Of a DNA stretch of 64,000 bases, positions 10,837 to 62,201 are shown piece by piece. The stretch spans positions 1-64,000 of the forward strand of contig WRMW01000008.1 of NCBI GenBank assembly GCA_009776955.1, given 5' to 3'. The notes under the pieces are model-generated. The model was not told the DNA's origin and ran no database searches. It saw only the letters and a program-made list of their open reading frames with translations. The translations under genes were made by a program, and so were the position numbers. The stretch comes from Clostridiales bacterium. Lineage in GTDB: Bacteria; Bacillota; Clostridia; Peptostreptococcales; Anaerovoracaceae. Numbering within the stretch: position 1 is the first letter of the stretch; each line of letters opens with the position of its first letter.

Positions 10837-13800
10837 ATGATGAAATCGAGGAGAGGGTCGCGCTTGTTGGCGATATTGTTGGCGTTTGTCCTGGTGGCGG
10901 GAATGGCGCCAGGGGGCGTTTTTGGCGAGGAGGTAGGGGTCGGCGAGGGCGGGCAGTCGGTCGGCGATCCTGCGACGGACGGCGTGACGGAATCGGAGCA
11001 GGATGGGTTCGGAGAGCTCGGAGAGCCTGTAGAGCCTGGAGAGCCTGGGGAGCCCGAAGTCACCGAACCGGCAGGCTTTCTGCAGCCTATGGCGGATTCG
11101 TTGCCGGACATCAGCGGGCCCGGCGACTGGCTTAGCGCGCGCGGCAACCCGCAAAACATGGGTGTGTTGAACGCGCTGACGCCCACGACGGCGACCGAAA
11201 CAAACCTGAAATGGGCGAGGACTTTTGGCACAGGCGGATTCGCCGACACCCCAAACAGCCCTGTTATTATCGGCGACCATTTAATCGTGTCCGCGAACAA
11301 CGTAATATGCAAACTTGACAGGGAAACAGGTAATGTCGTTGCCCAGACCACTATGGTCGCCGCGCCGAGCTTCGGGATATCGTCCCTTGCCTACGGCGCA
11401 GGCATGGTCTTTGCCCCGATAAGCAACGGGCGCATACAGGCGTTCAACGCGTCCACGTTAGAGTCGTTGTGGGTCAGCGAGCAGATAGGCGGGCAGTCCC
11501 TCAGCCCCATTGTTTACCATGACGGTTATGTATATACGGGCTTTTGGCAGAGCGAAACGGCCGACAACTACTATGTCTGCCTGTCCGTGACGGATGAGGA
11601 TCCTGCCGACCCGACCGAAACGAAACTTGCCCAGTGGAAGCACCTGGCGGCGGGCGGATATTATTGGGCCGGCGGCATCGTACTGGGCGATTATATAGTA
11701 TTCGGCAGCGACAACGGCGTTGGCACGGGTGAAGAAGCCGGCCTGTCTAATGTGTTCGCCCTGAACCGCATCACGGGAGATGTATCGGATGTGCTTGAAG
11801 GGGTGTTCGGCGACCAGCGCAGCGGCATTGCCTACGACGATGTGACTGGCAATCTGTTCTTTGTAAGCAAGGCCGGCTATATCAACACGGTCAAATTTGA
11901 TGAAAGCACGGGAAAATTTGACAAAAGCAGCTTTAAGATGAACCGCCCGTTTAACGCGCAGGCGACGAGCACGCCCGCCGTATACGACGGCACCGTGTTC
12001 TTTGGCACGGGCGGAGGCCCGGGTTCTCCCGGCAAGATTGTGGCCGTTGAAGCCGAGACTTTGGATCTTATAGACGATGTGGACCTTATCGCATACCCAC
12101 AAGGCTCGCCGCTGCTTACCACTGCCTATGAAGATGAAGACAAGCTGTTCCTCTATATTACATACAATGGGTTGCCCGGCGGCCTCGCCATGGTCGAGTT
12201 TGACACGGATACAAGGGAACTCACAAAAACGGAAATTTTCACGCCGCCCGCGGGCATGCAAAATTACGCGATATCCAGCGTGGTCTGCGACAAAGACGGC
12301 ACATTGTACTTCCACAACGACTCCCGTACCATGTTTGCCATTGAGAGGAATGTGGCGTGGCTTGAGTCGCTTTCCGCGGATATCGGAACGTTTGACAGGG
12401 CTTTTGAAACAGGCGTCCTGACATATGAGCTTGTCGTCCCCATAGGGACTGAGGATGTAGGGCTAAGTTTCACCGCCTCGGTGGGCTCTACAGTCGAGGT
12501 AAACGGCACGGCAAACGTCGCAGGCGTTGCGACCATCGAGCTTGCGGACGGCACGGCGAAGGCGGTAATTAAGGTGGCCAACGGCGGCCAAAACAGGGAT
12601 TATACGGTGAATATACGCGAGGCGAGCGATGAAACGGGGCTTGGCGTTTCGATCAATCTGTTGAACGCCGCGCCCGCCGACGCAAGCTTTGTGCCTTTTG
12701 ACGAGGACAATAATTATAGCCACAGCCTTGTAGATGAGACGACTTTTCGCCGCGTCTGGCTAAAGCGAGCCGATGTCAGGGCGAATGTGGTTGCCACCGC
12801 TGTCAGAGGCGTGGCGGCTTCAATGGGCGGGGCTGCGCTTGCGCCAGGCACGGAATTGACAAACATGAACACCTTGACTTCGGGCGTGGGCGCGACGTAT
12901 TTGCGGTACAATATCTACTTTGCGGGGAGTCTTGCGAATGCGGTAATCAAGCTTACGGTCACGGCAGAGGATGGTGTGACCACGGAGGAATTCTTTGTAA
13001 CGGTCAGCAGGCCCGGCGACCCAGACCCGCCGGTGAGCGAGGTAAAAGTGTTCCTGCAGGAAGATGACAGGGGCTTTCTGATAGCGGATACTGAGTTCAG
13101 CGTCGAGGCGGATCTTTCGGAGCGCTACGGCTTTGCCGATACCTATAACGGAGAGGAAGTGACCGTGCTTGACGTGCTTGTCGCCGCGCATATCGCGATT
13201 TATGGCGACGTCGAGGCGGATATACAGGACGTGCTTGCCGTGTCCGGCGGCAACGTGACAAAACTTTTCGGGTATTCGGACGCCTCAAGCTTCACCTTTC
13301 TTGTCAACGGCGCTTTCACGAAAGACGATGACGGATGGGGCATGTTGATTGTGGACTCGACGGTAGAGGACGGCGATATAGTATCGTTTTTGCTGCGCGA
13401 CGACGAATTCGGTTGGGGCGGTCTGATGAACCAGTATACATGGTTTGAGCAGGACGGGGTACCCGTCAGCTCGGTTACGGCTGATGCGGGGAGCGATTTG
13501 ACGCTCAAGTTGCAGGGGGTTTGGCTGATGATGCTGTTTGAGGATGAAGAAGATCAGAAAAAGGCCGCCGGCCCGATTGAGGATGCGGATATTTATGACC
13601 TTGAAATATCTGACGGCGGCGGTTTCAAAGTCGCCACTAGAGACGACAAACTTGCCGAGACTGACGAGGACGGGGAGTTTACCGTATCGTTTGACATGCC
13701 CGGCACTTACTATATCACTGCTACCGACGGCAACAGTTATGAAACCCTGATAATCCCGTGGCTAGAGGTAGTTGTGGCAGCGGGCGAGCCAGACCCCGAC

Positions 13801-16557
13801 CCCGATTCGATGGGCACGGATATTTCGCTGAGGCCTGTGCATACAATACTTACGAAAGACAATCCTTCAATCGTGATCGATGCGGATATTCTGCCTGATG
13901 ACCTATCTGGCCTCGTGGCTATCGACTGGTTTATAGACGGCGCGGAGGCGTGGGGCGCAGGCGAAGATGAGCCACTGATCACTTTGGAGCAGTCGCCGGA
14001 CAGGAGAAGTGCGACCGTGACTGTGACGGAAGAAGGGCTAAAGGCGGACGGCATATACCGCATACGCGCAAGGTATAGCACAGCACGCAGCCAGGTGTTC
14101 AGGCAGGCCACCGCGACGGTCGAAGTGCTGTCGGAAAATTCCGGCGAGGCGGCGTTTGGAATCCTCGGAACGGCGTTTACATTCAACAAGGCGATGGTGG
14201 CAGGCGTGCGTGTGCCTATCAGAATGGAAGGGATGAACACGGCGGCGAACGGCGTACAGGCAAGGCTTGTGAAGCAGGACGGGACGCCCTATGTCGAGGG
14301 CGAAAACCTTTGGAATATCAAAGCGGAGATAAGCAAGGACGATCCGCGTGTCATAGAATTGTCGGAAAAGACCCCGTTTGCGACCAAAAATGTGAAAAAT
14401 GTGAGAAGCAGGCTGCAGATCCTTCCGGCGGGCGCAGACGAGGAAACGGGCTGGATTACTTCAACCAGCAGTTCGAGCGGCAACACGTTCACGCTGACGG
14501 TAAGCGAAACATGGCCGAAGGTGACGCTTAGGCTTAGCAGGGCGTTGAGCAGGGCGTTCCCGTCCGTGCCCGCCGAGCTTACGGCTGCCACGCCGGTCGG
14601 CATCGGCGAGGTGAGGGAAGTGGGTCTTGACGCTTTTGCCGCAAACACGCTTGAGTACAATGCAGCTACGTGGGAGCTAAAGCTTGCGAACGACTGGTCG
14701 GGCATGCCGAACAATGGCAAGGTCGCCTTGAGGACGTCCGGCGCAGGCTATGTGGACATAGAAGGCTATCGCCGCATGGAGGTCGGCCAAGGCACTCGCA
14801 CGGCAAAAAACATGCCTACACTGAACGTGACGGTCGCTGCGGTCTCTGCGTTGCCCAAGCTCAAACTCAACAAGACTTCGTATCCCATACTGACAGACGA
14901 GCAGGTCGCGAACGCAGGCGGACACTTTGATGGGGCGGGGAGGGAAGCCGTGATGACTCTTATCTCTACCGACAAGAAAGTTCCGTTTGCGATTATTCCC
15001 GAAATTACAAAGGTGGAAATAGCCGACAAGGGAACGCGCGCAAACGGCAAGGACGAATTGACGGCGTGGCATATAGAAGGCAACAGGATCGGGCTTTCCG
15101 CCAAGGCGGGCGTAAGGGCAGGCACGGCAGCGGTAGAGGTATACTTTGAAAACGCGCCAAATCCGCGTGTATTGCAATTCCGCATTACTACGCCGCAGCT
15201 TTCCGCGCTAAAGACGACAAACAAGGCCGGTACAGTCAATATGAACAGGAATCATATATTGCTTGAAAGCACGCCGGTCTTTAGGGTTGCGGACATACCC
15301 ATCGCCATGAATGTGGACAACCTTGTGCTCGACGATTGGGACATAATGTTCGCGACGCCGGTCACGGGCAGCAACTTCAGGACCTTGCCGTGGAATGGCG
15401 AACTTGACGGATTTGGGTCTTGGGACGGCGCGGTGTATGCCGAGTCTGTGGACGGCGAAAACGCATTGAGAATAATGGCAAACCAAAGCCAGCTCAACAA
15501 GTTGGTGGCTGCACACAACGCCGCTGCATCTGGCAACGAAAAGCGAAACTTGAGGTATACGTTGCGTATCGGGTCGAAGAAGCTCAACGACGCATTGGGC
15601 AGGGCGCCGGGCAAGGAATTGACATTCAACACTACGCTGAATATTGTCAAGGCGGCTCCGACGTTCACGATAAGCCTGTCGAAGGCAAGGATCGACATCT
15701 CGAACCCTGAATCCGTCCAGACGGCGACGGTGCGGCTTGTAGGCACCACGTCCCAGATAAGCGGCATCAGGCTCTTTGAACGGGAGTTTGGCAGGGATGG
15801 GAAAAAGAATGTGTTGATCAAAGCGGGCAATGACGAGAGCCTGGATTTTGTGGTTGAAAACATCAGGGGGCTGAGCTTCGACATCAAGCGCGCGCCCGAC
15901 GTGTTGGTGCCGCCGACCGTGGCGAAAAGGCTCAGCGTCGAGGTGACGCTTGCCAATGGGCAGGTCCTGACATCCTATGCGGAATCGCTGACCAATATGG
16001 GAGAGCCTAGACTGGACATTGGCGGCAACCCCATATTTTCGGAGCCAAACAACAGGACGGTCAACATCAATCCGAGGCAGACGGTGGGCCGTGCGGCTTT
16101 CAGCAGAAACAATGTGACGCTTTATGGCGACAAGGCGATGCAGGGCGAGGGCATCGCGCTTGACCTTATTACGCCGGACAATGTGAAACTTGGGGCGGTC
16201 GGGATCGACCCTGCGAGTTTAAGGCCCTTTGCGATAGATGAGGACGGGCTTAGGGACGGCTTCCGACTTGAGCGAAAAGGCGAAAACGAATGGACGATTT
16301 TCTTCGCGAACGACAGGCTGCCGATACGTGGCGACAGCCGCGGAAGGCCGACCGCTGCTACGCTCGCAAACAATTACAAGATAGGGCTGCAGCTATGGGC
16401 CGAGGGGACATATGAATGGCAGATGGAGAGCGACGGCGTCACTTTGGTGAGGGACAAGAGCGGCAACCCAGTGCCGGTAGCGCTGAAAAATGCAAAAGGC
16501 AAGAATGTGTCAAAGCCGATCGTGGTAAATGTGACGGTGCGGATAGTGAGGGGATAG
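10837..16557 (+). CDS. Giant secreted beta-propeller / DUF4430 protein, likely corrinoid capture
   Basis: A 1906-residue exported protein, first gene after the cobalamin riboswitch. Order of parts: a signal peptide (RRGSRLLAILLAFVLVAGMA, cut near GVFGEE); an acidic Pro/Glu/Gly linker to about 85; a PQQ-like beta-propeller, about 95-505, with repeated blades (NVICKLDRETGNVV, KIVAVEAETLDLI); a cadherin-like beta-sandwich (WLESLSADIGTFDRAF); a DUF4430 domain, about 735-865, resembling the C-terminal domain of transcobalamin and intrinsic factor; then about 900 residues of beta-sandwich units. The final units resemble the end of the subtilase at 54260. No LPXTG, SLH or C-terminal membrane segment is seen. 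AAGGAGGG precedes the ATG. A role in binding cobalamin outside the cell is inferred from riboswitch, domain and neighbours. Confidence 0.88.
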   Translation: MMKSRRGSRLLAILLAFVLVAGMAPGGVFGEEVGVGEGGQSVGDPATDGVTESEQDGFGELGEPVEPGEPGEPEVTEPAGFLQPMADSLPDISGPGDWLSARGNPQNMGVLNALTPTTATETNLKWARTFGTGGFADTPNSPVIIGDHLIVSANNVICKLDRETGNVVAQTTMVAAPSFGISSLAYGAGMVFAPISNGRIQAFNASTLESLWVSEQIGGQSLSPIVYHDGYVYTGFWQSETADNYYVCLSVTDEDPADPTETKLAQWKHLAAGGYYWAGGIVLGDYIVFGSDNGVGTGEEAGLSNVFALNRITGDVSDVLEGVFGDQRSGIAYDDVTGNLFFVSKAGYINTVKFDESTGKFDKSSFKMNRPFNAQATSTPAVYDGTVFFGTGGGPGSPGKIVAVEAETLDLIDDVDLIAYPQGSPLLTTAYEDEDKLFLYITYNGLPGGLAMVEFDTDTRELTKTEIFTPPAGMQNYAISSVVCDKDGTLYFHNDSRTMFAIERNVAWLESLSADIGTFDRAFETGVLTYELVVPIGTEDVGLSFTASVGSTVEVNGTANVAGVATIELADGTAKAVIKVANGGQNRDYTVNIREASDETGLGVSINLLNAAPADASFVPFDEDNNYSHSLVDETTFRRVWLKRADVRANVVATAVRGVAASMGGAALAPGTELTNMNTLTSGVGATYLRYNIYFAGSLANAVIKLTVTAEDGVTTEEFFVTVSRPGDPDPPVSEVKVFLQEDDRGFLIADTEFSVEADLSERYGFADTYNGEEVTVLDVLVAAHIAIYGDVEADIQDVLAVSGGNVTKLFGYSDASSFTFLVNGAFTKDDDGWGMLIVDSTVEDGDIVSFLLRDDEFGWGGLMNQYTWFEQDGVPVSSVTADAGSDLTLKLQGVWLMMLFEDEEDQKKAAGPIEDADIYDLEISDGGGFKVATRDDKLAETDEDGEFTVSFDMPGTYYITATDGNSYETLIIPWLEVVVAAGEPDPDPDSMGTDISLRPVHTILTKDNPSIVIDADILPDDLSGLVAIDWFIDGAEAWGAGEDEPLITLEQSPDRRSATVTVTEEGLKADGIYRIRARYSTARSQVFRQATATVEVLSENSGEAAFGILGTAFTFNKAMVAGVRVPIRMEGMNTAANGVQARLVKQDGTPYVEGENLWNIKAEISKDDPRVIELSEKTPFATKNVKNVRSRLQILPAGADEETGWITSTSSSSGNTFTLTVSETWPKVTLRLSRALSRAFPSVPAELTAATPVGIGEVREVGLDAFAANTLEYNAATWELKLANDWSGMPNNGKVALRTSGAGYVDIEGYRRMEVGQGTRTAKNMPTLNVTVAAVSALPKLKLNKTSYPILTDEQVANAGGHFDGAGREAVMTLISTDKKVPFAIIPEITKVEIADKGTRANGKDELTAWHIEGNRIGLSAKAGVRAGTAAVEVYFENAPNPRVLQFRITTPQLSALKTTNKAGTVNMNRNHILLESTPVFRVADIPIAMNVDNLVLDDWDIMFATPVTGSNFRTLPWNGELDGFGSWDGAVYAESVDGENALRIMANQSQLNKLVAAHNAAASGNEKRNLRYTLRIGSKKLNDALGRAPGKELTFNTTLNIVKAAPTFTISLSKARIDISNPESVQTATVRLVGTTSQISGIRLFEREFGRDGKKNVLIKAGNDESLDFVVENIRGLSFDIKRAPDVLVPPTVAKRLSVEVTLANGQVLTSYAESLTNMGEPRLDIGGNPIFSEPNNRTVNINPRQTVGRAAFSRNNVTLYGDKAMQGEGIALDLITPDNVKLGAVGIDPASLRPFAIDEDGLRDGFRLERKGENEWTIFFANDRLPIRGDSRGRPTAATLANNYKIGLQLWAEGTYEWQMESDGVTLVRDKSGNPVPVALKNAKGKNVSKPIVVNVTVRIVRG

Positions 16558-16558
16558 T

Positions 16559-17410
16559 GTGTTGAGGAAAATATTTGCGAAAAAATCATATGTGGCTGCG
16601 GTGGCGGTTGTGGCCGCCATCGCGGTGGTCAGCGTTTTGTATTTTGCAGCGGGCGAGGGGGGTGAGGGCGGCTCGCGCACGTTCTTTAGCTCGGTCTATA
16701 TGCCCCCCGCCGCTTCGGGTTCGGTTGCAAACCCCTTTGACGCTTTTGCGAATAATGGGGTGGGCCCAGAAACGCAATTGGGGATGCCCGGAGCGTTTGG
16801 GACGCCTGGGGCGTCGAGGCAGGTTCCGGGCTCGGTTGCCTCTGACAATCAGCAGGGCGGCAGGCGGGGCGGTGGCTCGGAGTCGGGTGGCGGCGGCATG
16901 GGCGGTGTAGGGGGTATGGATGCGGGGGGCGGTCAGGGCGGTCAGCCCGATGGCGGTCAGGGCGATGGCGGCGGCAGTGGTCAGCCCAGCGGCGGAAACC
17001 CATCCGATGGAGGCGGCGGCAGTGGTCAGGACGGCGGCCCGTCAGGTCCGACAGTAACAATCTCAATCGACGCAAGCACGATGGGGCGCGGCTTTGTAAT
17101 GCGGCCCCGCACAGCATCATTTACCGAGGGCGAATCCGTTTTTGACGTGTTGTTCCGCGAGTGCCGCGCAAGCGGAATACATATGGCTTCAAGATGGACG
17201 CCGCTATACAGCAGCTACTATATTGCGGGGATCGACAACTTGTACGAGTTTGACGGCGGGGACCTTTCCGGCTGGATGTACAGGGTCAACGGGTGGTTCC
17301 CCAATTATGGGGCGAGCAGCTATACCCTTGAGGACGGAGATGTTGTCGAGTGGCTTTATACCCGCGACCTCGGACGCGATATCGGCGGCGAGGGCGCGGT
17401 CGGCGGGTGA
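16559..17410 (+). CDS. Membrane-tethered DUF4430 protein, likely corrinoid-binding
   Basis: The 283-residue product has an N-terminal membrane segment (VAAVAVVAAIAVVSVLYFAA) that looks like an uncleaved anchor. A Gly/Ser/Gln-rich flexible spacer follows, about 95-170 (GGGQGGQPDGGQGDGGGSGQ), then a C-terminal DUF4430 domain, about 172-275, with TEGESVFDVLF and SGWMYRVNGWFPNYGASS. DUF4430 resembles the beta domain of animal transcobalamins. The protein would hang the domain at the outer membrane face next to the ECF transporter encoded just downstream. Its GTG start lies two bases after the giant gene's stop, so the two are co-translated. Binding of cobalamin is inferred, not shown. Confidence 0.85.
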   Translation: MLRKIFAKKSYVAAVAVVAAIAVVSVLYFAAGEGGEGGSRTFFSSVYMPPAASGSVANPFDAFANNGVGPETQLGMPGAFGTPGASRQVPGSVASDNQQGGRRGGGSESGGGGMGGVGGMDAGGGQGGQPDGGQGDGGGSGQPSGGNPSDGGGGSGQDGGPSGPTVTISIDASTMGRGFVMRPRTASFTEGESVFDVLFRECRASGIHMASRWTPLYSSYYIAGIDNLYEFDGGDLSGWMYRVNGWFPNYGASSYTLEDGDVVEWLYTRDLGRDIGGEGAVGG

Positions 17411-17421
17411 CGGTCTGACTT

Positions 17422-18258
17422 ATGCCTGAAAAAAGACGTTTATCGAGGCGCACGGTCGTGGCCGCAATAATTGTCATCCTGTGCATACCGGCGGTGATGG
17501 CGGTCAACATATTGTTTTTTGAGGACCGCAGCTACTATGCGACGTCGTTTATAATAATCGCGCTGTCGCTTGTGCCGTTTGCGCTCGTGTTTGAGGGGCG
17601 GAAGCCGCAGGCACGCGAGCTTGTGGTGATTGCGGTCATGGTGGCGGTCGCTGTGGTAGGGCGGGCGGCGTTTTTTATGCTGCCGCAGTTCAAGCCCGTG
17701 GTGGCAATAGTCATAATAGCGGGCGCGGCGCTCGGCGCGGAGAGTGGCTTTGCGGTCGGGGCGCTTACGGGGTTTGTGTCCAATTTTATCTTTGGGCAGG
17801 GGCCGTGGACACCGTGGCAGATGTTTGCTTTCGGAATAATAGGATTTTTGGCGGGGCTTATTTTTTACAGGCTTGCGGCGTCGATAGGGGCACCGAGCAG
17901 GGACGGGTCGGGTGCAGAGGGGGTTGTTGCGTACAAGTGGTACGACACAGGCCGCCTTGGGTGGAATGTGCGGGCGCGCAAACGTGTGGAATGGCTCCGT
18001 GTGTTCGTCCTATGCGTATTCGGCGGCGTCATCACCTTTGTGGTATATGGCCTGCTGCTCGACACGGCGGCGGCCATCATGTTTTCGTCAGGCGATGTCA
18101 CGCTGAGCCAATTGCTGACGACGTACCTGACGGGGGCGCCTTTCAATATGGTGCATGCAGCGGCAACGGTGTTTTTTCTCGCAGTCCTCGCACGTACCAT
18201 GATTGAAAAACTTGAGCGCGTCAAGAAAAAATACGGGCTGCTAGGAGCTGAGGCATGA
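17422..18258 (+). CDS. ECF transporter substrate-binding S component, predicted cobalamin
   Basis: A 278-residue integral membrane protein with about six hydrophobic segments. The core has the look of an ECF S component, for example AGAALGAESGFAVGALTGFVSNFIFGQGPWTPWQMFAFGIIGFLAG, which resembles the CbrT-type group linked to cobalamin. S components bind the vitamin and dock on the EcfT/EcfA module. The riboswitch, the two DUF4430 proteins and overlapping ecfT and ecfA genes all point to cobalamin or a precursor corrinoid as substrate. A soluble insert of about 30 residues (GAPSRDGSGAEGVVAYKWYD) interrupts the C-terminal half. The gene overlaps ecfT by four bases (ATGA). Confidence 0.85.
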   Translation: MPEKRRLSRRTVVAAIIVILCIPAVMAVNILFFEDRSYYATSFIIIALSLVPFALVFEGRKPQARELVVIAVMVAVAVVGRAAFFMLPQFKPVVAIVIIAGAALGAESGFAVGALTGFVSNFIFGQGPWTPWQMFAFGIIGFLAGLIFYRLAASIGAPSRDGSGAEGVVAYKWYDTGRLGWNVRARKRVEWLRVFVLCVFGGVITFVVYGLLLDTAAAIMFSSGDVTLSQLLTTYLTGAPFNMVHAAATVFFLAVLARTMIEKLERVKKKYGLLGAEA

Positions 18259-19205
18259 TAGGGCATATATCCGAAAACCGTAGCATTTTCGCAGGCTACC
18301 ACCCGCTTGTCAACTATATGTGGTTTGCCTATGTAATATTGCTGCCGGTTTTTTTCATGCACCCCGTCATTGTCGCGATTTCGTTTGTGCCCGCCCTTGC
18401 GCATTCTATTTATCTGGGGCGCAGAAGGGCCGCCCGTTTCGGGCTGTGCTTCGTCTTGCCGCTTATGGTCATAGCCGCGCTGTTCAACCCCGCATTTAAT
18501 CACCGAGGCATCACTATATTGTATTACATAAACTACAACCCAATTACGCTGGAGGCAGTTATTTATGGAATTGTCGCGGCCGGCATGATAGGTGGCGTCG
18601 TTTTCTGGTTTGTCTGCTATAACTCGATTATGACATCGGACAAGTTCATCTATTTGTTCGGGCGGATTGTGCCAGCGATGTCCATGGTCATCTCGATGGC
18701 GCTGCGGTTCGTCCCGCGCTACAGGGCGCAGATAAAACGCATAATTGCCGCGAGGCGCGGGATCGGCTTTGACGTAAGCTCCGGCAAGTTCATCGAGCGC
18801 GTGAGAAGCGGGGGCGCCATCCTTTCGGTGATGCTGACGTGGGCGCTTGAGAACGGGATCGAAACCGGCGACTCCATGCTTTCGCGCGGCTACGGGCTGC
18901 CGGGGCGTACGGCATATTCCAATTATCGCTTTGATTCGCGCGACCGGACGCTGGTACTGCTTCTGGCTGCTTTGATGTCGGTCGCGCTGTTCGTGTGCGT
19001 CACGGGGCTGATATCCGTGGTGTACTATCCGATGTTTGTTATGGAGAGCGTTTCTCCCTTTGCGGGGATTGCGTATGTCTGCCACGGCGCGGTTTGCTTG
19101 CTGCCGCTTGCGCTTGAACTTAGGGAGGACGCGATTTGGAACATGGCGCTGCACGGGTGCGGAGCGTGCGCTGGAAGGCAGGAGGGCGTGCCATGTTTGA
19201 AGTGA
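18255..19205 (+). CDS. ecfT: ECF transporter T component (EcfT)
   Basis: This 316-residue membrane protein couples the S component to the ATPases. The C-terminal cytoplasmic coupling helices carry the family features RFVPRYRAQIKRIIAARRGIGFD and LTWALENGIETGDSMLSRGYG, with the short Ala/Ser-Arg-Gly motif that fits into ATPase grooves. Several membrane segments precede and follow. It overlaps the S-component gene by four bases and the ATPase gene by thirteen. This fixed order makes a dedicated ECF transporter rather than a shared module likely. Confidence 0.88.
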   Translation: MIGHISENRSIFAGYHPLVNYMWFAYVILLPVFFMHPVIVAISFVPALAHSIYLGRRRAARFGLCFVLPLMVIAALFNPAFNHRGITILYYINYNPITLEAVIYGIVAAGMIGGVVFWFVCYNSIMTSDKFIYLFGRIVPAMSMVISMALRFVPRYRAQIKRIIAARRGIGFDVSSGKFIERVRSGGAILSVMLTWALENGIETGDSMLSRGYGLPGRTAYSNYRFDSRDRTLVLLLAALMSVALFVCVTGLISVVYYPMFVMESVSPFAGIAYVCHGAVCLLPLALELREDAIWNMALHGCGACAGRQEGVPCLK

Positions 19206-21022
19206 GGGGGCTGACGTTTGCCTACCCTGAGCGGGGGCGGGCGGCGCTTTCCGATGTGTCGCTGTCGGTGGAAGCGGGCGAGTTTGTGGTGATATGCGGC
19301 AAGTCGGGGTGCGGCAAGTCCACGCTACTGCGCCACTTAAAGACAGTGCTTACGCCGTTTGGCAGACGGGAGGGCGAGGTGTTTTTTGACGGCCGCTTGG
19401 TCGAAAGCATTTCAAAGCGCGAGCAGGCCTCACGAATAGGCTTTGTATTGCAGAGCGCCGAGAACCAGATTGTCACCGACAAGGTGTGGCATGAACTGGC
19501 GTTCGGTCTTGAAAGCCTTGGCGAGAAAACGCCTGTCATACGGCGGCGCGTTGCGGAGATGGCGTCGTTTTTCGGTATTCAGGAGTGGTACGAGAAAAGC
19601 GTGTTCGAGCTTTCGGGCGGGCAGAAGCAGATACTTGCGCTTGCGGCGGTGCTGGCCATGCAGCCAGATGTGCTGATACTCGACGAGCCGACGAGCCAGC
19701 TCGACCCGATTGCGGCAGAGGACTTTATAGAAACGCTAAAAAAGATAAATGATGAGATAGGCACGACCATTATCCTGTCCGAGCACAGGCTTGAGGGGGT
19801 GCTGCCGAGGGCCGACAGGGTGGCAGTGATGGCAGAGGGGCGGGTGCTGTGCGAGGGGGGCGCGTCCGAGGTGGCGTGGGAGTTGAAGCGTCTGGGGGAT
19901 CCGATGTTGACTGCTATGCCGACGCCGGTGCGGGTGTATTTGGCGCTGGAAGCAAGCCAGGCCTTGCGACGCGTCCGCAGAGGTTCTACCGAAAGGCTCG
20001 CTCCGCCTTCGTTTGGCTCCGCCTCGCTTTCGGTAACCCCTTGCTCCGCCTCGCGCCTTCGGCGCTCGACGCGAAGTCCCGGCTTTTCTTCGGTCCGGCA
20101 AGTGCCGCAGACTGTGCGGGAGGGGCGGGTTTATCTTGAGGGGAAGTACGCTGGACGTGGCGTGGACGGTGAGCGTGGCGTTGGTGGTGATGAGCCTGCT
20201 CGCAATAATGACGGTGCCACCCGCGAGCCTATTATCGAGATGAAGGAGCTGTGGTTTCGGTATGAGCGCGATGGGCGTGACATTGTGAAAGACCTTGCGC
20301 TCAATGTATATCCGGGCGAGTTTGTGGCAGTGGTAGGCGGCAACGGCGTGGGCAAAAGCACCATGCTCGGCATCGTGGCCGGCGACAACAAATATTACCG
20401 AGGCAAGGCGCGTGTCCTCGGCTTCGACCCGAAAAAGGCTGACGGGCGGTGCCTTACCGACGCGGGCTTGGCTGTGTTGCCCCAAGACCCGCAGACATTG
20501 TTCACGCGCGCCACGGTCTTTGACAACCTTATAGATGTGGCAACGGCCCATGCGAAACGGCGCGGCGAGCCTGCGAGCCCCGAAGAAATAGAAGCGGAAG
20601 TGTGCCGCGTCTGCGAAATGACAGACATAGTGAACCTGATGGGTTTTCACCCCTTTGACGTAAGCGGCGGCGAGCAACAGCGCACCGGGCTTGCGATGGC
20701 GTTGCTTACAAAACCAAAGTTATTATTGCTCGACGAGCCAACCAAGGGGATGGACAGCTTTTTCAAGGAGAAGTTTTCCGCAATACTGAAGCGTCTTTGC
20801 TCGGACGGGATTGCCGTGCTTATGGTCTCGCATGACGTGGAGTTTTGCGCGAAATATACAGACCGCTGTGCGTTGTTTTTCAATGGCGGCATCGTCAGCG
20901 AGGGCACGCCACGCAAGTTTTTCAGCGGAAACAGCTTCTATACGACCGCCGCCAACCGCATGGCGCGGGGGTTGTTCCACGACGCGATCACCGCAGAGGA
21001 AGTCGTGGCTCTGCTTTTATAA
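19193..21022 (+). CDS. ecfA: ECF transporter ATPase, two ABC domains fused (EcfA1-A2)
   Basis: A 609-residue protein with two complete ABC ATPase domains. The first has Walker A GKSGCGKST (about 33-41), signature LSGGQKQ and Walker B VLILDEPTSQLD. The second has GGNGVGKST (about 381), VSGGEQQ and LLLLDEPTKGMD. In most Firmicutes the two ECF ATPases are separate genes; here one chain supplies both. The linker (about 265-310) contains a low-complexity Arg/Ser/Pro stretch encoded by GC-rich inverted repeats (see the repeat at 19988). AGGAGG precedes the ATG. It closes the predicted corrinoid uptake operon. Confidence 0.92.
   Translation: MFEVRGLTFAYPERGRAALSDVSLSVEAGEFVVICGKSGCGKSTLLRHLKTVLTPFGRREGEVFFDGRLVESISKREQASRIGFVLQSAENQIVTDKVWHELAFGLESLGEKTPVIRRRVAEMASFFGIQEWYEKSVFELSGGQKQILALAAVLAMQPDVLILDEPTSQLDPIAAEDFIETLKKINDEIGTTIILSEHRLEGVLPRADRVAVMAEGRVLCEGGASEVAWELKRLGDPMLTAMPTPVRVYLALEASQALRRVRRGSTERLAPPSFGSASLSVTPCSASRLRRSTRSPGFSSVRQVPQTVREGRVYLEGKYAGRGVDGERGVGGDEPARNNDGATREPIIEMKELWFRYERDGRDIVKDLALNVYPGEFVAVVGGNGVGKSTMLGIVAGDNKYYRGKARVLGFDPKKADGRCLTDAGLAVLPQDPQTLFTRATVFDNLIDVATAHAKRRGEPASPEEIEAEVCRVCEMTDIVNLMGFHPFDVSGGEQQRTGLAMALLTKPKLLLLDEPTKGMDSFFKEKFSAILKRLCSDGIAVLMVSHDVEFCAKYTDRCALFFNGGIVSEGTPRKFFSGNSFYTTAANRMARGLFHDAITAEEVVALLL
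19988..20080 (+). repeat. GC-rich palindromic repeat inserted in frame in the ECF ATPase linker
   Basis: ACCGAAAG (19988-19995) and CTTTCGGT (20027-20034) are perfect inverted arms. Between and after them the octamer GCTCCGCC occurs three times, and CTTCG...CGAAG forms a further stem. Translation through it gives a low-complexity peptide (STERLAPPSFGSASLSVTPC) foreign to ABC ATPases. It looks like a small mobile palindromic element tolerated in the linker. Confidence 0.6.
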
Positions 21023-54259: not shown

Positions 54260-57200
54260 TTGAGCGTAAGGCGAGAGGTTTTTCATAGGTTTGTTGCATG
54301 GGGGCTAACGTTCGCCTTGGTGGCTGCGATAGCCTCTGTAGGCACGTTCGCGGAAACCGATCAGGGCGAGGTTGCTTCTGGCATTGCGATGGGCGAAGCG
54401 GAACAGTCCGACGAAGCGGAACAACCCAGCGAGCAGGGCGAAGCCGATGATGAAGGCACCGATGACATTGGCGACGACGGCGCTGACAATGAGGGCTACC
54501 CGGAAGCGATCACTCCCGCGAATGATGTCGATGACAATCCTGATCAAGAAGCATTGGATCAAATAATGGCATTGATGTCCGATGACGAGCCAGATGAGAG
54601 TGCCTACGACGGCTACATAGTTGTAGTAAAACCTGAAGAAGTTTCAGGCGATATGGCTGGGGCGGCATCGGAAGACCCGGTCGCGGGCAACCTCTTTGCT
54701 GTCGAATCGCCAGAGGAGGCGCTGGAGTTCGCCGAGCCCGAGCAGATAATAGCCATAGAGCCTAACTTTATCCTTATGCCTCTTGAATTTCCCCAGACCG
54801 CGCCAGAAGATCCCTACTATAAGGATGGTCTCCAGTGGAATCTTAGCGGAGACTTCGGCGTGGATGCGCTCGGTGCGTGGAGCCGCGAGCTATCAGGTAC
54901 GGGTGTGCGCGTGGCGGTGATAGATTCTGGCATCAAGGAGCATGAAGACATGGAGCCAATCAAGGACGGGTATAGGTTTGGCAACAGCGGCACCCTGCTT
55001 GGAACTTTCGCCCAAGGCGGCTATGCGGTGGTGGACGATGATTATCTGAGTACTCACCGATCGGCGGGGCATGGCACTTTTGTCAGTTCAATGGTGTCTG
55101 CCAAGACCAACAACGGAGTGGGGATAGCGGGGCTTGCCTACGGTGCGGAGGTAGTCCCGTACAAAGTGCTGGGACGTACGCTGAACGCGAGTTTTCTAGA
55201 CCTTGCGGCGGCGCTTAACCATATAGCGCAGCACAATGAGCAAAACCCTGAATCGAAAATAGAAGTTGTCAATATGAGCCTAGGGGCGGCGTCGTCGGCG
55301 AAGCCGACTTCGCTTCAGGGAAGCATCGACGCGTTGGACGAGCAAGGAGTCATCATGGTGGCTTCGGCAGGGAACGGCGCTGACAACAACACAACTAATA
55401 TAATGTATCCGGCGGGCAATGACAGCGTTGTTGGCGTCGCATCAATTGATGAAGACGGAATAAGGGCGGACAATTCCCAGACAAACGACTCTGTTGATAT
55501 CGCAGCGCCTGGAGTATTGATATACGGGCTTTCGTATGCAAGCCCGACGTCCTACAGGACTATGAGCGGCACATCTATGGCGGCGCCGCAGGTAGCCGCT
55601 GTTGCTGCGCTGGCCAAGGAGATGGATCCTGATATCGACCACGAGGAATTCATGGACTTGCTTGAAAGGACAAGCAAGGCGCCTACGGACGGCGATACAG
55701 GCAAGACGCCGGAGTACGGCTTCGGGCTGCTTGACGCGGCGAGCCTCGTCAAAGAATATAACCGCTACACAATAAAGCACTCATACGACGACGTGATAGA
55801 CGAATCGCTGACAGTGAGAGGCTATGCAAAAACGGATGAGCAGTCGTTTACTGCATCTCTCGCAATGGCGGATGTGGGAGACCCGAAGCGCGGATATATG
55901 GTCGAGAGCTGTACGCTTAACGGGGTGCCGATTGACCTCTCGCTGACCTATGTCTTGGTTGAAGACGAGGATGTGCTTGTGGTGGACTACGTCATTGACG
56001 AAGGGCAGTTGTGCACCATCGAGTTTGAATACGAGATACATAATGACTCCCTTGACGGCACAGATGCGGAAATCACTGCGACGTATGATGACGCGGCGAT
56101 AGAAAGCGGCGATGTGGTGTTCAAGGGCGGAGAGCTTGTCGTCACCGTGGAGGCTGAGGGCGCGGATGCGTACGCATACGCTTGGGCGGTAGACGGTGAG
56201 CCGGTTTCGGCTGACGGGGCAAGCTATAGCATGTTCTTAGGCGACGGGGACTATAAGTCGGTAGAGGTTTTCTGCAAAGTGCGAGGGGTGAGCTTGCCGG
56301 CTGTCATTACGGAGTCCTTGCCGGACGGCAAGGTGGGCGAGGAGTACAATGCGACGCTGGAGGCTACGGGGACAGAGCCCATAGAGTGGGGCATTGCGGG
56401 CGGCAGCGAAGCCGGTGGCCTCTGGATCGGCGGCGGCATGCCGGGCGGCCTTTCACTCAACTCGCAGACCGGTGAAATCTCCGGGATGCCGACTGCGGAA
56501 GGCATATTCAGCTTCACCGCAATGGCGGGCAATATAGCCGGCGATGACACAATGGAGCTTTCCATTAAAATCGATGCCGTTCCAGAGCCGGATATGACCG
56601 CGACTCTTAGCCTGATGCCGTCCCATGCCATAATTTTCGATATAGGCGAAACGGCGGTCTTTGAAGCGTTTTACAGCGCGGATGCATACGATCCCGAGCT
56701 GGTCAAGTGGGAAGCGGAGGGCGATGCGGGAGATTTCATCACCATAGACGATTCCGGCAAGGCCATCGCCTTGGTGCAGGCTACGATAGACGGGCTTTCC
56801 GAGGCGAGGACGGTACGGATAAGGGCTACTTACAACGAAGCGTATATCGCTACTGCGACGGTGACGCTGCTCCCGCCGGACGAGGGCGAGGATGACGGCT
56901 CTCCCGCCGTTCGGCTGCTCGCAACCAAGGCCACCATAAACCTTGCAAAAACGGAAGGGACGATGGTGCCCTTGCATATCACAAGGCGGCTAGAGCCGCC
57001 AAGCGGTGGTGGCAATGGGACTTACGATGTCGTGTTCACGGGCAAGGGCGCCGAAAGCTTTACAGGCTTTGTCCGAGACAGCAGGTTTTTGGAGATACTT
57101 GCCGCAGAGGGCACGAAGAAGGGCACGTACAAGAAAATAGGGGTTGAGATCAACGGCGTTTCCGCTGGCACGATGACGCTTGCCGTCAATGAAAAATTTC

Positions 57201-58867
57201 CAAAGATCAAGATAGTGACGGAGCGGCTGAACCTTTCGCGTCCAGAGGATATCGCACGGGTCACGGCAACAAGCAACGACGGCGCCATATGCACGGTCGA
57301 ACGCATCGAGGTCGTGTCCTCGAACAAAGCTTCGTATGTGGCCGTGCAGGGCGTGGACGGCAGGGACGGCTTGATGCTCACCTCTACTGCGAAAAAAGGA
57401 AGCGTCAGAGTGGAGGTGACGGTCAAGGCGGCAGGCTACGAAAGGCTTTCCAAAAATGGAAGCCCGACAGAGGGCACAAGTTTCAGAGCCACGGTAAAAA
57501 TAGTAAACGACGTGCCGAGGCTCAGGCTTTCGACAAGCTTATTGAGGATGGCGGGCACGGCGCCGGCAACAGTCCGACTGGAATCGGCAGTCAAAAAGAG
57601 GGCGCTCGAAAGCTGGGGCGCAATAACGGCGATAAGGCTTGCCAAAGCGGGCGAGCTTACAGCGTCGCAGACCAAGAAAGCCCTTGGCGGCATTGTTTTG
57701 GAGCGTACGGGAAAAGATGCGTTTGCCATAAACTTTGACCGTCCAGAGGATGTCAAGGCGGGTACAGTCTTTGTCGCGGTGGATATTGACGGAGGAGCGA
57801 GGCCTGTCATTCTGCCTCTTACGATGAAAACAATAAACCCTGCCAAATCCACGATGACCGCCAGCCCCAGAAGCGTCGCATGGAACAGGAACCAGCCGAA
57901 TGAGACGACACCCATAGCACTCGGCTCGAACCAGAGCAATCTTGTATTTGAAGCGGGGAATATTGGGGTGGAGCTCGTCACTGGCAGCGGCAAGTCGGAA
58001 AAAGTCGGCACGCTCCCGTTGTATATAGATATAGCGGAACGCCTCGACAACCAAGTGGTGCTTAGCCTGAACAATGGCGAGCTTGAAGACCATCTTGGCA
58101 ATGGCGGCACGTGGCCTAAGGGCGGGAAACACAGGCTTAGGATAGCCGACGATGCCACCGGAAAGAAGGTGCATGTGACCCTCACGATTGCCGACCGGCC
58201 TGCTTCGGCAATCATCTCCCTTAGGGGCAGGATAGATATCGCAAATCCGGATTCGGCCATAACGGCGACTGTGCGGTTGCGGAACACCACGGCGCCCGTA
58301 AGAAGCGTTGCGCTCAGCAGTAGCGACTTTGAAGCCCGGTACAGCGAGGGCAATACCTTTGCCATCATGGCAGGCCATAGGTTTGTCGTGCCGGTCAAGC
58401 AAAGCGTCACTGCCACGATCACGCTAGAGAACGACGAAGTCCTGACCCGTAACATAAACATAACTCCAAGACAGGGCACTCTCAGGGCGTGGCAGAGCAG
58501 AAGCGCCGTGACCTTGTACAAGGATAGGCCTCTGGAAGGCGAGCAAGTGGGTCTAAAGCTGAGGAAGCCGGACGGCGCAGTGCTCGGCGTGGTGCAGATA
58601 CGTGAAGCGAGCCAAAAGCCCTTTGTGGGCGACGGCTTCAGGCTTGAGCGGAACGGCGCAAACGACTGGAGCATCTATTTTGCGTGGGGCGAGCCTCCGA
58701 TACCCGCAAAAGGCAGTAAACTGGCTTCGCGATACACCGTCGGGATAGAACTTTGGGCTGAGGGGACTTACAGGATGGAAGGCGGACGCGCGGCCCCGCT
58801 TAGGGATGATCGGAATCGAGCAAAAACCAAACCGAGAATCGTAAACGTCCGTGTGAATATCCGGTAG
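54260..58867 (+). CDS. Large secreted subtilisin-like protease
   Basis: A 1535-residue S8 peptidase. The TTG start (SVRREVFHRF) with GGAGAG seven bases upstream is preferred to the GTG 11 codons earlier. After the signal (WGLTFALVAAIASVGTFA) and an acidic propeptide comes the catalytic domain with Asp222 (AVIDSGI), His271 (GHGTFVSS), oxyanion SAGNGAD and Ser439 (SGTSMAAPQ). A putative-Ig domain (MPGGLSLNSQTGEISGMPT) follows, then about 750 residues of beta-sandwich units. The last of these (GRIDIANPDSAITATVRL to LWAEGTY and IVNVRVNI) resemble the C-terminus of the giant B12-locus protein. No LPXTG or membrane tail is seen. Confidence 0.93.
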   Translation: MSVRREVFHRFVAWGLTFALVAAIASVGTFAETDQGEVASGIAMGEAEQSDEAEQPSEQGEADDEGTDDIGDDGADNEGYPEAITPANDVDDNPDQEALDQIMALMSDDEPDESAYDGYIVVVKPEEVSGDMAGAASEDPVAGNLFAVESPEEALEFAEPEQIIAIEPNFILMPLEFPQTAPEDPYYKDGLQWNLSGDFGVDALGAWSRELSGTGVRVAVIDSGIKEHEDMEPIKDGYRFGNSGTLLGTFAQGGYAVVDDDYLSTHRSAGHGTFVSSMVSAKTNNGVGIAGLAYGAEVVPYKVLGRTLNASFLDLAAALNHIAQHNEQNPESKIEVVNMSLGAASSAKPTSLQGSIDALDEQGVIMVASAGNGADNNTTNIMYPAGNDSVVGVASIDEDGIRADNSQTNDSVDIAAPGVLIYGLSYASPTSYRTMSGTSMAAPQVAAVAALAKEMDPDIDHEEFMDLLERTSKAPTDGDTGKTPEYGFGLLDAASLVKEYNRYTIKHSYDDVIDESLTVRGYAKTDEQSFTASLAMADVGDPKRGYMVESCTLNGVPIDLSLTYVLVEDEDVLVVDYVIDEGQLCTIEFEYEIHNDSLDGTDAEITATYDDAAIESGDVVFKGGELVVTVEAEGADAYAYAWAVDGEPVSADGASYSMFLGDGDYKSVEVFCKVRGVSLPAVITESLPDGKVGEEYNATLEATGTEPIEWGIAGGSEAGGLWIGGGMPGGLSLNSQTGEISGMPTAEGIFSFTAMAGNIAGDDTMELSIKIDAVPEPDMTATLSLMPSHAIIFDIGETAVFEAFYSADAYDPELVKWEAEGDAGDFITIDDSGKAIALVQATIDGLSEARTVRIRATYNEAYIATATVTLLPPDEGEDDGSPAVRLLATKATINLAKTEGTMVPLHITRRLEPPSGGGNGTYDVVFTGKGAESFTGFVRDSRFLEILAAEGTKKGTYKKIGVEINGVSAGTMTLAVNEKFPKIKIVTERLNLSRPEDIARVTATSNDGAICTVERIEVVSSNKASYVAVQGVDGRDGLMLTSTAKKGSVRVEVTVKAAGYERLSKNGSPTEGTSFRATVKIVNDVPRLRLSTSLLRMAGTAPATVRLESAVKKRALESWGAITAIRLAKAGELTASQTKKALGGIVLERTGKDAFAINFDRPEDVKAGTVFVAVDIDGGARPVILPLTMKTINPAKSTMTASPRSVAWNRNQPNETTPIALGSNQSNLVFEAGNIGVELVTGSGKSEKVGTLPLYIDIAERLDNQVVLSLNNGELEDHLGNGGTWPKGGKHRLRIADDATGKKVHVTLTIADRPASAIISLRGRIDIANPDSAITATVRLRNTTAPVRSVALSSSDFEARYSEGNTFAIMAGHRFVVPVKQSVTATITLENDEVLTRNINITPRQGTLRAWQSRSAVTLYKDRPLEGEQVGLKLRKPDGAVLGVVQIREASQKPFVGDGFRLERNGANDWSIYFAWGEPPIPAKGSKLASRYTVGIELWAEGTYRMEGGRAAPLRDDRNRAKTKPRIVNVRVNIR

Positions 58868-58895: not shown

Positions 58896-61800
58896 ATGAA
58901 ACGGTTGCAACTCAATAAAGTTATTTCGATATTGTTGCTATCGGCGATGATGGCGATGTTTGTGCCGTTGTCGGGCATGGCGCTGATGGATGCCGGCGAA
59001 GGAATAGGGTCGGATGCCGGCGGCGAAACGGAGCACGGCGGTGGAGCGGAGCACGGCAACGAATCAGATGCGAGGCCGGATGCCCACGACTGCCTGGACG
59101 GGGATGGCGAAGCTCCGGAATGCGATTTGGAGCATGGCGAAGAAGCTGATATAGAAGCAGGCATAGAAGCGGATGTAACAGATGAAACACTCACAGACGG
59201 GGACGGTATTCTCGAACCGCCCATGGTGCAGGCTTTTGCAGGGGACTCGGAAGAAAGCGACGAGGAGCTGGCGCCGCTGGCAGACCATCCCTGGAGCGGC
59301 TCTACTCCGCCCACGGTCGCTGGCGGCGATACGGTGACGCTCGGCGGCTCGCCGTCCGGCACGCTTGACATTCCGATCGGCGCGACCGTCACCATGAACG
59401 GCGTGGCCGCAGAAACAACGGCAGGTCTTACCCTGAATATCGGCGCGGGAGCGACAGTTATATGGGACGCGATCCTTGCCGGCTCGTCGTCGGCGTACCT
59501 CGTATCCCTGACAGGAAGCGGCACGTTCGAGATGAGGGAATCGAAAATTGCGAATATGGGGACGCCGGGCGGCGGCATAAGCATAGGGGGCAATGTGGCC
59601 GTCAATATCGGCAGCGGCGCCTCGGTTTTCTCCGATGTGCGCGGCAACCCCATCCGTGTCAATGCGGGTGGCGTCACCATCACCATAGGCCCTGGCGGGC
59701 TGGTCGAGAGCCTTGGGGCGAACTCCGCCGACCCCAACGCCGCCATACAGGTCAATAATAATTTGCCGAACGTCACCATAAACGTGAACGGCGGCTCAGT
59801 GGTTTCAACGAATGAAGGCTATGCGATCAATGATGGCGCGGGGACGGCTGAGGTCGGCAACACCACCGTTATCAATGTCCGCAGCGGCGTGGTAAGCGCC
59901 GACCGAGCCTGCGCGATTCACTCCACAGGTTCGGGTTCCGTCGCGAATATAAGCGGAGGCTCGGTGTCGAACGCCGCCGCCAACAATCTCAACCCCGCAA
60001 TCAACATGAACGCCGGCTCAGGCTCCGGCATCGACAATATAAATATCAGCGGCGGCACGGTGCAGTCGAGGACGGCTGCGGGGTGGGCTGTTCAGACGAA
60101 AGGCAATGTGGTGGTCAGCGGCGGCCTTGTCACCGCAGTGAACGGGCGCGCGATAAACCTCGCCGGCATGACGTCCAAGGCCACGGTCACGGACGGAAGG
60201 GTGGAGGCGACAGGCAACGGCACGGCCATAAGCACGTCGACCACAGCCCTAGGCGAAGTGGTCAATACCTCCGTGGTCGTATCGGGCGGGGCGGTCTGTT
60301 CGGAAGCCGGCCTTGCGATCAATGTCACGGGCGCGAACTCCATCGTCGAGGTGAGCGGCGGCTCGGTTTCGACTGAGGCTACGATGTCCACGGCCGCCGC
60401 CCAAAGGCACGCAATCAATGCATCGGGGGCGAACTCTTCCGTCACGGTGAGCGGCGGCGAAGTCACCGCCACCTTCGGCAGGGCAATAAACGCCGCTGCG
60501 GGCGTCACGGTAGGCGACGGGTTTGTGTTCGCATATGGCACGGGGATGGCCGATGTGGTGCAGGGCTCCCCTTTCGCCGGGCCTTCCCTGCCCGCAATAG
60601 TGGTGGCATGGAATCAGGCGGCAGGGCGAAGGACATACTTGTCGATGCCGATAAACCATCAAGACTTGGTTTTTATGCCTGAAGAGTTAAGCCTTAGCGA
60701 TTTCTCGTGTTTTTGGTATAACGACCCGGCCACAGACAGCGCGGGAATCCGTTATATAGTGACCGCCCCGACTTCCAATGTGGGATTCTTCCCGATAGAT
60801 ATTGTGACCATAATCAGCGACTACGGCCTGATTTTCGACGCGAGCGACGGCAGGATGTATATGAACAATACCGGTTCCGGCGTGCCAGGGGGCGAGAATG
60901 GCGAGTTCACTGCAGGCAGGGGGTCTGTATGGGACGGGGCGCCGGCGATTCTTACCCTGAACGGCTTCTTCTGGGCTACTGCCGCCCCGATCGCGTTGAC
61001 TATTATAAACGGCAACACGGAGATTGTGGCGACGCCCGGGACTTTCAACGGTTTTTCCGTAATCGGCTCGCAGGCGAGCGGCAATTCTGTTGGCATGTCC
61101 GCACCAGGTCTTGATATCACGATAGGGGGCGGCGGGAATATGAGCGTCAGCGCTGGAGAGGCCGCAGGCTCGTCTTTCGGGATAGATTGCGACGGCCTCA
61201 TTTTCGGCGGCGGGACGCTGACTGCCCAAGGCTATACGAGGGCGTTGAATGCCGACAGCTTCGGCGACACGACCGATGCCTATAGATATTGGTGGGATAC
61301 CGGGTACAACGATCCTGGCGGCACGGGGACGGTATACGCCGCCGATGCCCCGCCGCCCCTTAATACGCCATATAGCCAAGACCCGTCCCACAGGTATGTC
61401 AAGTTCACCACGGTCCCGTTTGCGGTGGTGGATGACGTGAGCGTCACAGGATTGACGGGCACCCCGCTCATTACGGTACCGCAGCCGCAGAGGGCGAGGC
61501 TGACGATAAGCGGCGACAGCGTTTCGGCGGGCGGGCTTTCCGGCGTGGATGCCGGAAGCTGGTTCGCATATCTGCCTGCGGGAGTGACGGTTACTGCAAG
61601 CGCTTCGCCTGGCGGCACCCACGTCATAGAACTTACGTTTACGGGAACGCCGCTGGAAGCATCCGTTTCAGTGTTTGACATTGTAATACCCGGAAGCGCA
61701 CTTGCAGGGGGCGGAAGCCTTGCTGTGTTTTTCAACCCTGACGCGGGGTTCAATATAACGGCGATTTATGATCTGCTCGTGACTGCCGGCGACGGCGGCG

Positions 61801-62201
61801 CCATAGCGGACATCAGCACAAGCACAGGGAAGTACCGTGCTGCCACCGCCATAAGCGTGTCGGCAAATGCGGATGCAGGCTACCGTTTCACACAATGGAC
61901 GGCAAGCGGCGTGGAATTGGGGAGCGGGGCAGCAAGAACGGCCACAGTAGCGTTCCCCATGCCTGCCGAGAGGGTGGTCCTTACGGCCAACTTTGCGCGC
62001 ATAACTCCCCCGGGCGGCGGTGGCGGCGGCGGCGGCGGGCATCATATAGTTTCCGGTGCAGATGCGGCTCTGCCGCGCACTGGCGACGATAGAAACATGC
62101 AGGGCTGGGTGATGGCGCTGCTGGCATCTGTGATGGGGCTGGTCTTTGTCGGTATTTTCGTTGCTTGGAAAAAACGGTTTGACATAAACCAGGGTTTTTA
62201 G
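58896..62201 (+). CDS. LPXTG surface protein with beta-helix-like repeats
   Basis: A 1101-residue cell-wall protein. It has a signal peptide (VISILLLSAMMAMFVPLSGMA), a His/Glu/Asp-rich acidic stretch (about 30-140), then many short repeats of the type VSGGSV...GRAIN and VTVSGGEVTATFGRAINA, suggesting a right-handed beta-helix. An InlB-type B repeat (FTQWTASGVELGSGAARTAT) comes near 1010, a Gly run (PGGGGGGGGGHH), and the sortase signal LPRTG followed by a hydrophobic segment and KKR. It is anchored to the cell wall. Similar beta-helix proteins act in adhesion or polysaccharide binding, but no catalytic motif is seen. It begins 29 bases after the subtilase and is probably co-expressed. Confidence 0.9.
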   Translation: MKRLQLNKVISILLLSAMMAMFVPLSGMALMDAGEGIGSDAGGETEHGGGAEHGNESDARPDAHDCLDGDGEAPECDLEHGEEADIEAGIEADVTDETLTDGDGILEPPMVQAFAGDSEESDEELAPLADHPWSGSTPPTVAGGDTVTLGGSPSGTLDIPIGATVTMNGVAAETTAGLTLNIGAGATVIWDAILAGSSSAYLVSLTGSGTFEMRESKIANMGTPGGGISIGGNVAVNIGSGASVFSDVRGNPIRVNAGGVTITIGPGGLVESLGANSADPNAAIQVNNNLPNVTINVNGGSVVSTNEGYAINDGAGTAEVGNTTVINVRSGVVSADRACAIHSTGSGSVANISGGSVSNAAANNLNPAINMNAGSGSGIDNINISGGTVQSRTAAGWAVQTKGNVVVSGGLVTAVNGRAINLAGMTSKATVTDGRVEATGNGTAISTSTTALGEVVNTSVVVSGGAVCSEAGLAINVTGANSIVEVSGGSVSTEATMSTAAAQRHAINASGANSSVTVSGGEVTATFGRAINAAAGVTVGDGFVFAYGTGMADVVQGSPFAGPSLPAIVVAWNQAAGRRTYLSMPINHQDLVFMPEELSLSDFSCFWYNDPATDSAGIRYIVTAPTSNVGFFPIDIVTIISDYGLIFDASDGRMYMNNTGSGVPGGENGEFTAGRGSVWDGAPAILTLNGFFWATAAPIALTIINGNTEIVATPGTFNGFSVIGSQASGNSVGMSAPGLDITIGGGGNMSVSAGEAAGSSFGIDCDGLIFGGGTLTAQGYTRALNADSFGDTTDAYRYWWDTGYNDPGGTGTVYAADAPPPLNTPYSQDPSHRYVKFTTVPFAVVDDVSVTGLTGTPLITVPQPQRARLTISGDSVSAGGLSGVDAGSWFAYLPAGVTVTASASPGGTHVIELTFTGTPLEASVSVFDIVIPGSALAGGGSLAVFFNPDAGFNITAIYDLLVTAGDGGAIADISTSTGKYRAATAISVSANADAGYRFTQWTASGVELGSGAARTATVAFPMPAERVVLTANFARITPPGGGGGGGGGHHIVSGADAALPRTGDDRNMQGWVMALLASVMGLVFVGIFVAWKKRFDINQGF

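Follow-up and report, generated by a model that had tools for sequence, protein, structure and literature searches.

What the related C-termini of two giant exported proteins are, and what they may do for their carriers, is the question raised by the window (the whole stretch of DNA that was analysed, 64,000 nucleotides). The first protein, P1 (10837..16557, forward strand; 1906 aa; Pfam PQQ_2, 8e-9; Cadherin-like, 1.5e-6), consists of a signal peptide, a PQQ/BamB-like propeller, a cadherin-like sandwich, a DUF4430-like domain, and a C-terminal block. Its passenger region lies at 11077..13770 (+); units U1–U5 of the block, an Ig/cadherin-like string (17-gene alignment, AF2, Foldseek), at 13807..15660 (+); and units U6–U7, a C-terminal sandwich pair (A1 alignment, AF2), at 15661..16554 (+). 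The second protein, P2 (54227..58867, forward strand; 1546 aa; Peptidase_S8, 6e-43; He_PIG, 4e-6), is a giant subtilase with the same block, U1–U5 at 56591..58204 (+; block alignment) and U6–U7, with the tail KPRIVNVRVNIR, at 58205..58864 (+; A1 alignment; profile E 1e-80). Both frames are intact, and both N-termini are signal-peptide-like.

The preliminary description had called the two ends related, and all motifs quoted for this fall into one alignment: the C-termini are homologous over ~900 aa (169 bits, E 1e-45). Since the best alignment pairs P1 987–1903 with P2 786–1545, the shared part is three times as long as first noted. The upstream "arrays" of similar 80–100-residue units proved to be something else, namely Ig-like sandwiches of ~100–150 aa without detectable mutual sequence similarity, each present once and in fixed order, which makes a constant block; no internal repeat origin was found, hhalign probability staying below 10% for every pair of units with these shallow profiles.

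The gene for a DUF4430 protein (16559..17410, +; Pfam DUF4430, 6e-17) starts directly after the P1 stop codon and is followed in line by ECF transporter S, T (CbiQ-like), and ATPase genes (17422..21022, +; gene order and searches); together with P1 these genes fit a cofactor-uptake locus, for which the preliminary description had guessed cobalamin. This DUF4430/ECF operon (16559–21022) stands right behind a propeller/DUF4430 giant whose passenger recurs in many family genomes. A gene 28 bp behind that of P2 encodes an LPXTG-type protein (58896..62201, +; LPRTGDD, TM segment, basic tail). The homologous C17b (C17:8431–12159, L039; 31% identity, E 6e-59) follows the block protein C17a, and an LPXTG-type protein directly behind a block protein is thus a recurring gene pair.

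The genome holds a whole set of signal-peptide proteins with this C-terminus, as had been suspected. Members were counted by six-frame searches of the own genome, an assembly of 22 contigs and 2.03 Mb with 91% completeness and 0.2% contamination. Searched with the last 302 aa of P1, it returned 26 matches; almost all of these lie in giant ORFs, and the strong matches share 34–49% identity. The A1 profile gave 17 near-complete modules (E 1e-73 to 1e-123), three additional C-terminal fragments located at contig ends or close to them, and a single distant member. In full frames, 17 genes carry the block C-terminally (among them C1c, a 3′ part matched to a 5′ part at the C10 contig end by an identical 42-aa overlap), and the very divergent C17a is the 18th. 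The 17 genes total ~46,000 aa, 138 kb, or 6.8% of the assembly, and member proteins measure 1546–7607 aa. Signal peptides are alike where the start is assembled, with R-x-x-A-W-x-L in most; only C12 lacks a clear signal-peptide-like start. Besides the passengers of P1 and P2, Pfam finds Beta_helix_3, GLUG, YDG/MBG, PKD, and Flg_new_2, and aBig_2 in C17a.

The ends of contigs C17 and C20 (C17:35562–35816; C20:13977–14231; L060, L061) share 268 bp of block gene at 97% identity and continue into differing downstream DNA, and so are taken as two further genes cut by the assembly; because 3′ ends as similar as these interrupt the assembly, the genes counted are a minimum. C13 (L038, about 4700–5150) carries a truncated block-gene remnant, the last ~110 aa, adjoined by a pair of small genes that look like an antitoxin and a toxin of the PIN type. 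C2b (L035:7751–8680) has an aberrant tail (RALSRSSASGATIHIL) with a shortened U7 and is possibly in decay.

No Pfam family (window proteins and other members; Big_1 included) and no NCBIfam family (window proteins) matches the block, and a PDB sequence search with it returned no relative. Membership in a known adhesin or anchor family, which the preliminary description had left as an alternative, was rejected: Pfam, NCBIfam, and PDB, by sequence and by fold, yield generic Ig/cadherin similarity only. The lack of LPXTG, SLH, and membrane tail first seen in P1 and P2 extends to every member scanned. An LPXTG motif with a hydrophobic segment was not found (KD19 maximum in the last 100 aa 1.34 or less in 18 of 18), SLH (PF00395) and CWB2 (PF04122) are absent from every member and from the whole genome, and neither the WxL model (PF13731) nor its distal motif Y-x3-[LIV]-T-W-x-L-x3-P was found in members. 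Great length together with adhesive or stalk domains (beta-helix, GLUG, YDG, MBG, PKD, Flg_new_2) is a feature that most members share with fibrillar adhesins; P1 and P2 carry a propeller and a protease instead and do not show it as such. With no known anchor present, the block is a candidate cell-surface anchor for these fibrillar-adhesin-like giants.

The block is probably a lineage-specific, non-covalent C-terminal surface-attachment module with shuffled passengers; its homology and distribution are observed, and attachment is what we infer from them. The proteins would be exported through a Sec-type signal peptide; the N-terminal passenger (propeller/DUF4430, subtilase, beta-helix, GLUG, YDG/MBG, or PKD) would do the outward work, U1–U5 would serve as a short fixed spacer, and the mildly basic U6–U7 at the extreme C-terminus would bind a wall component non-covalently, the putative ligand being a glycan, a wall polymer, or a resident protein. 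Attachment is favoured by a block that is always terminal, in at least 18 genes with differing passengers, by signal-peptide-like starts in nearly all members with the start in hand, and by a genome that lacks SLH and CWB2. The genome does contain one sortase, LPXTG-type proteins, and choline-binding repeats, which counts against it and means that the block is not the sole anchor of the genome; sortase and LPXTG, as read from sequence, point to a Gram-positive-type host.

Charge speaks both ways. Passengers are acidic (pI ~4.1), and U3, U6, and U7 are net positive on average, as would suit binding; block pI, however, is inconstant (5.5–9.5 by member).

The block measures 757–1042 aa and aligns as seven units, U1–U7, one copy each and in constant order in 17 of the 17 aligned members. 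Among 13 diverged members, mean pairwise identity is 25–29% for U1–U5 and 39% for both U6 and U7. Recent copies give block dN/dS of 0.18–0.45, from which purifying selection on the block follows. Gradient and selection together favour attachment through the terminal pair, against which dN/dS of U6–U7 in the recent copies is not below that of U5. The last 310 aa of P1, modelled by AF2 with 17 paralogues as alignment, form two beta-sandwiches with confidence (pLDDT 87, pTM 0.77), and the second is closed by the conserved last strand, VVNVTVRIVRG in P1. The U1–U5 model is a string of sandwiches (pLDDT 76, pTM 0.49). Foldseek matched U6–U7 to generic Ig/cadherin strings only, at TM 0.34 or less, and U1–U5 to cadherin/Ig strings (E to 1e-15) at 10% identity, which identifies a type of fold only.

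Every unit thus looks Ig-like, a fold as usual in stalks as in binding, and the block might be a mere stalk or spacer, the proteins being either set free or retained by partners that engage the passenger. Fibrillar adhesins with a stalk running to the C-terminus are noted in PMC9210967, and in relatives many homologues have stalk-type domains, and no anchor, at their ends. Stalks, however, usually consist of similar repeats in variable number, whereas the block has seven dissimilar single units in constant order in 17 of 17 genes, with conservation highest in the last two; we regard a mere stalk as unlikely.

The position of the block was compared with that of anchors in relatives. Homologues of the P1 passenger with other C-termini occur in 30 of 149 family genomes: they end in SLH x3 in two genomes, in CWB2 in three (two by Pfam, one by sequence), in sortase-like tails in three, in a TM tail in one, and in fn3, Big_2, Flg_new, or other domains without a recognised anchor in nine. 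Homologues of the P2 protease end in choline-binding repeats in two genomes, in such repeats plus GH25 in the congener G014, in SLH in three, and elsewhere in other domains. In the own genome, a subtilase (L150:2965–8682; C1:68964–74681, protease at C1:69327) is 62% identical to the P2 protease and has choline-binding repeats and a GH25 lysozyme domain as its C-terminus, the arrangement of G014. Anchor substitution in two passenger families, one including a paralogue in the own genome, supports attachment; these sequence comparisons suggest that the block stands where relatives wall-anchor the same passenger, an argument from position that makes wall binding a candidate role. In relatives, however, roughly half of these homologues finish with fn3, Big_2, or Flg_new domains and show no recognised anchor, so that an anchor at this position is common, not obligatory, and this weighs against attachment.

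Passengers do not follow the block tree, a further point for attachment. There, a sister pair (100/100) unites two different passengers, the propeller of P1 and the YDG of C15; GLUG and YDG passengers appear at separate positions; and C12, whose passenger is of another kind, sits among four beta-helix genes ("PKD_other" is a loose label, and the branches of C17a, C1c, and P2 are long). DNA similarity between C12 and C16 starts inside the block and runs onward only. Tree and DNA similarity together indicate that passengers were exchanged in front of the block, which would spread by gene duplication and recombination, swapping passengers as it does. DNA downstream of block genes held nothing common to them, and slight upstream similarity was confined to recent copies. 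Recent duplication, the other outcome that could have undone the preliminary description, applies to C14a, C14b, C16, C2a, and C12 only (DNA identity 75–89% across the greater part of the block); all others branch deeply, and most members are 25–45% identical.

Nothing like the module was met in other Clostridia or beyond: the A1 profile found no match in 148 further family genomes (GTDB), 390 class genomes, and 398 phylum genomes (overlapping samples). BLAST with the 920-aa C-terminus of P1 against three congeners (83–86% complete, fragmented) gave no match up to an E limit of 10; these genomes may have lost some copies, but loss of all of about twenty is not likely. A U1–U5 profile gave only one 71-position match (E 0.005) in one family genome, and viral contigs had no match to the module. 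A scan for a sequence pattern across 85,462 species genomes, which sees only genomes with a WAxGTY-like peptide, gave one locus; the apparent distant homologue L063 (Desulfuromonadaceae MAG) was rejected, its match being 20 residues around WAKGTY, a coincidence. By these searches the block is lineage-restricted, no searched relative having it.

The giants might instead join through U6–U7 into a surface coat resembling an S-layer or sheath, the block driving assembly. About 20 co-resident paralogues share one common terminal module, and the Foldseek matches include the self-associating RbmA and cadherins, at the level of fold only. There is, however, no direct sign of self-association, and ordinary anchors carry the enzyme passengers (subtilase, propeller) in relatives; we hold assembly to be improbable, more so than a mere stalk. 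That the block acts as a signal for secretion or sorting, read by a dedicated export or processing machine, like the C-terminal domain of type IX cargo, is very improbable: its terminal position and a conserved last strand, N[VI]RVN[IL]R, abutting the stop codon in most members would fit, but N-termini are ordinary and signal-peptide-like, no type IX or other C-terminal sorting model occurs among the hits that P1 and P2 have in NCBIfam up to E 1, the last strand simply ends a folded sandwich in the AF2 model, and 900 aa is long for a signal.

The idea of an unrecognised surface-attachment or secretion domain in several large proteins is partly supported and is the best reading available: the set is genome-wide, no known anchor is present, the C-terminal pair is the most constrained part, and relatives of two passengers have known wall anchors in that place; what is conserved, however, has about three times the length that had been proposed.

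Among described systems, the M1-C domain of Methanobrevibacter ruminantium (PMC2812497) is alike in that a gut microbe has dozens of large adhesin-like proteins with a shared C-terminal Ig-like domain; M1-C is Big_1-like, ~200 aa long, occurs on 44 adhesin-like proteins, and was proposed by its authors to attach them to the wall. Compared by description only, it differs in being one short domain in an archaeon with a pseudomurein wall, whereas the block has seven domains and is bacterial; by this analogy M1-C appears to be a precedent in kind, and the block would not be categorically new. The WxL domain likewise binds the wall non-covalently from the C-terminus, without LPXTG, on several proteins per genome; its model and distal motif are unmatched here. 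SLH, CWB2, and choline-binding repeats take the place of the block on homologous passengers and differ as short repeated modules of known folds, to which the block has no detectable similarity. Fibrillar adhesins (PMC9210967) resemble the block proteins in extreme length, in adhesive and stalk domains (YDG, Flg_new, Rib-like), and in a surface end; their usual anchors are missing from the block proteins, and about half of known fibrillar adhesins have no recognised anchor, the stalk of some extending to the C-terminus (PMC9210967).

Beyond attachment as such, we put forward tentatively that the block represents an anchor class of independent origin: a seven-domain block of one lineage that would recognise a wall component of that lineage, replace the role of SLH, CWB2, and choline-binding modules, and have spread to about twenty proteins by passenger exchange.

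The case is a clean one: about twenty proteins share a single undescribed terminal block, and homologous passengers that carry known anchors, one of them in the own genome, serve as natural controls; U6–U7 (~300 aa) is a defined construct with a confident model. For the lineage itself, the block shows how a surface repertoire can grow large, to nearly 7% of a 2-Mb genome, while near relatives are without it.
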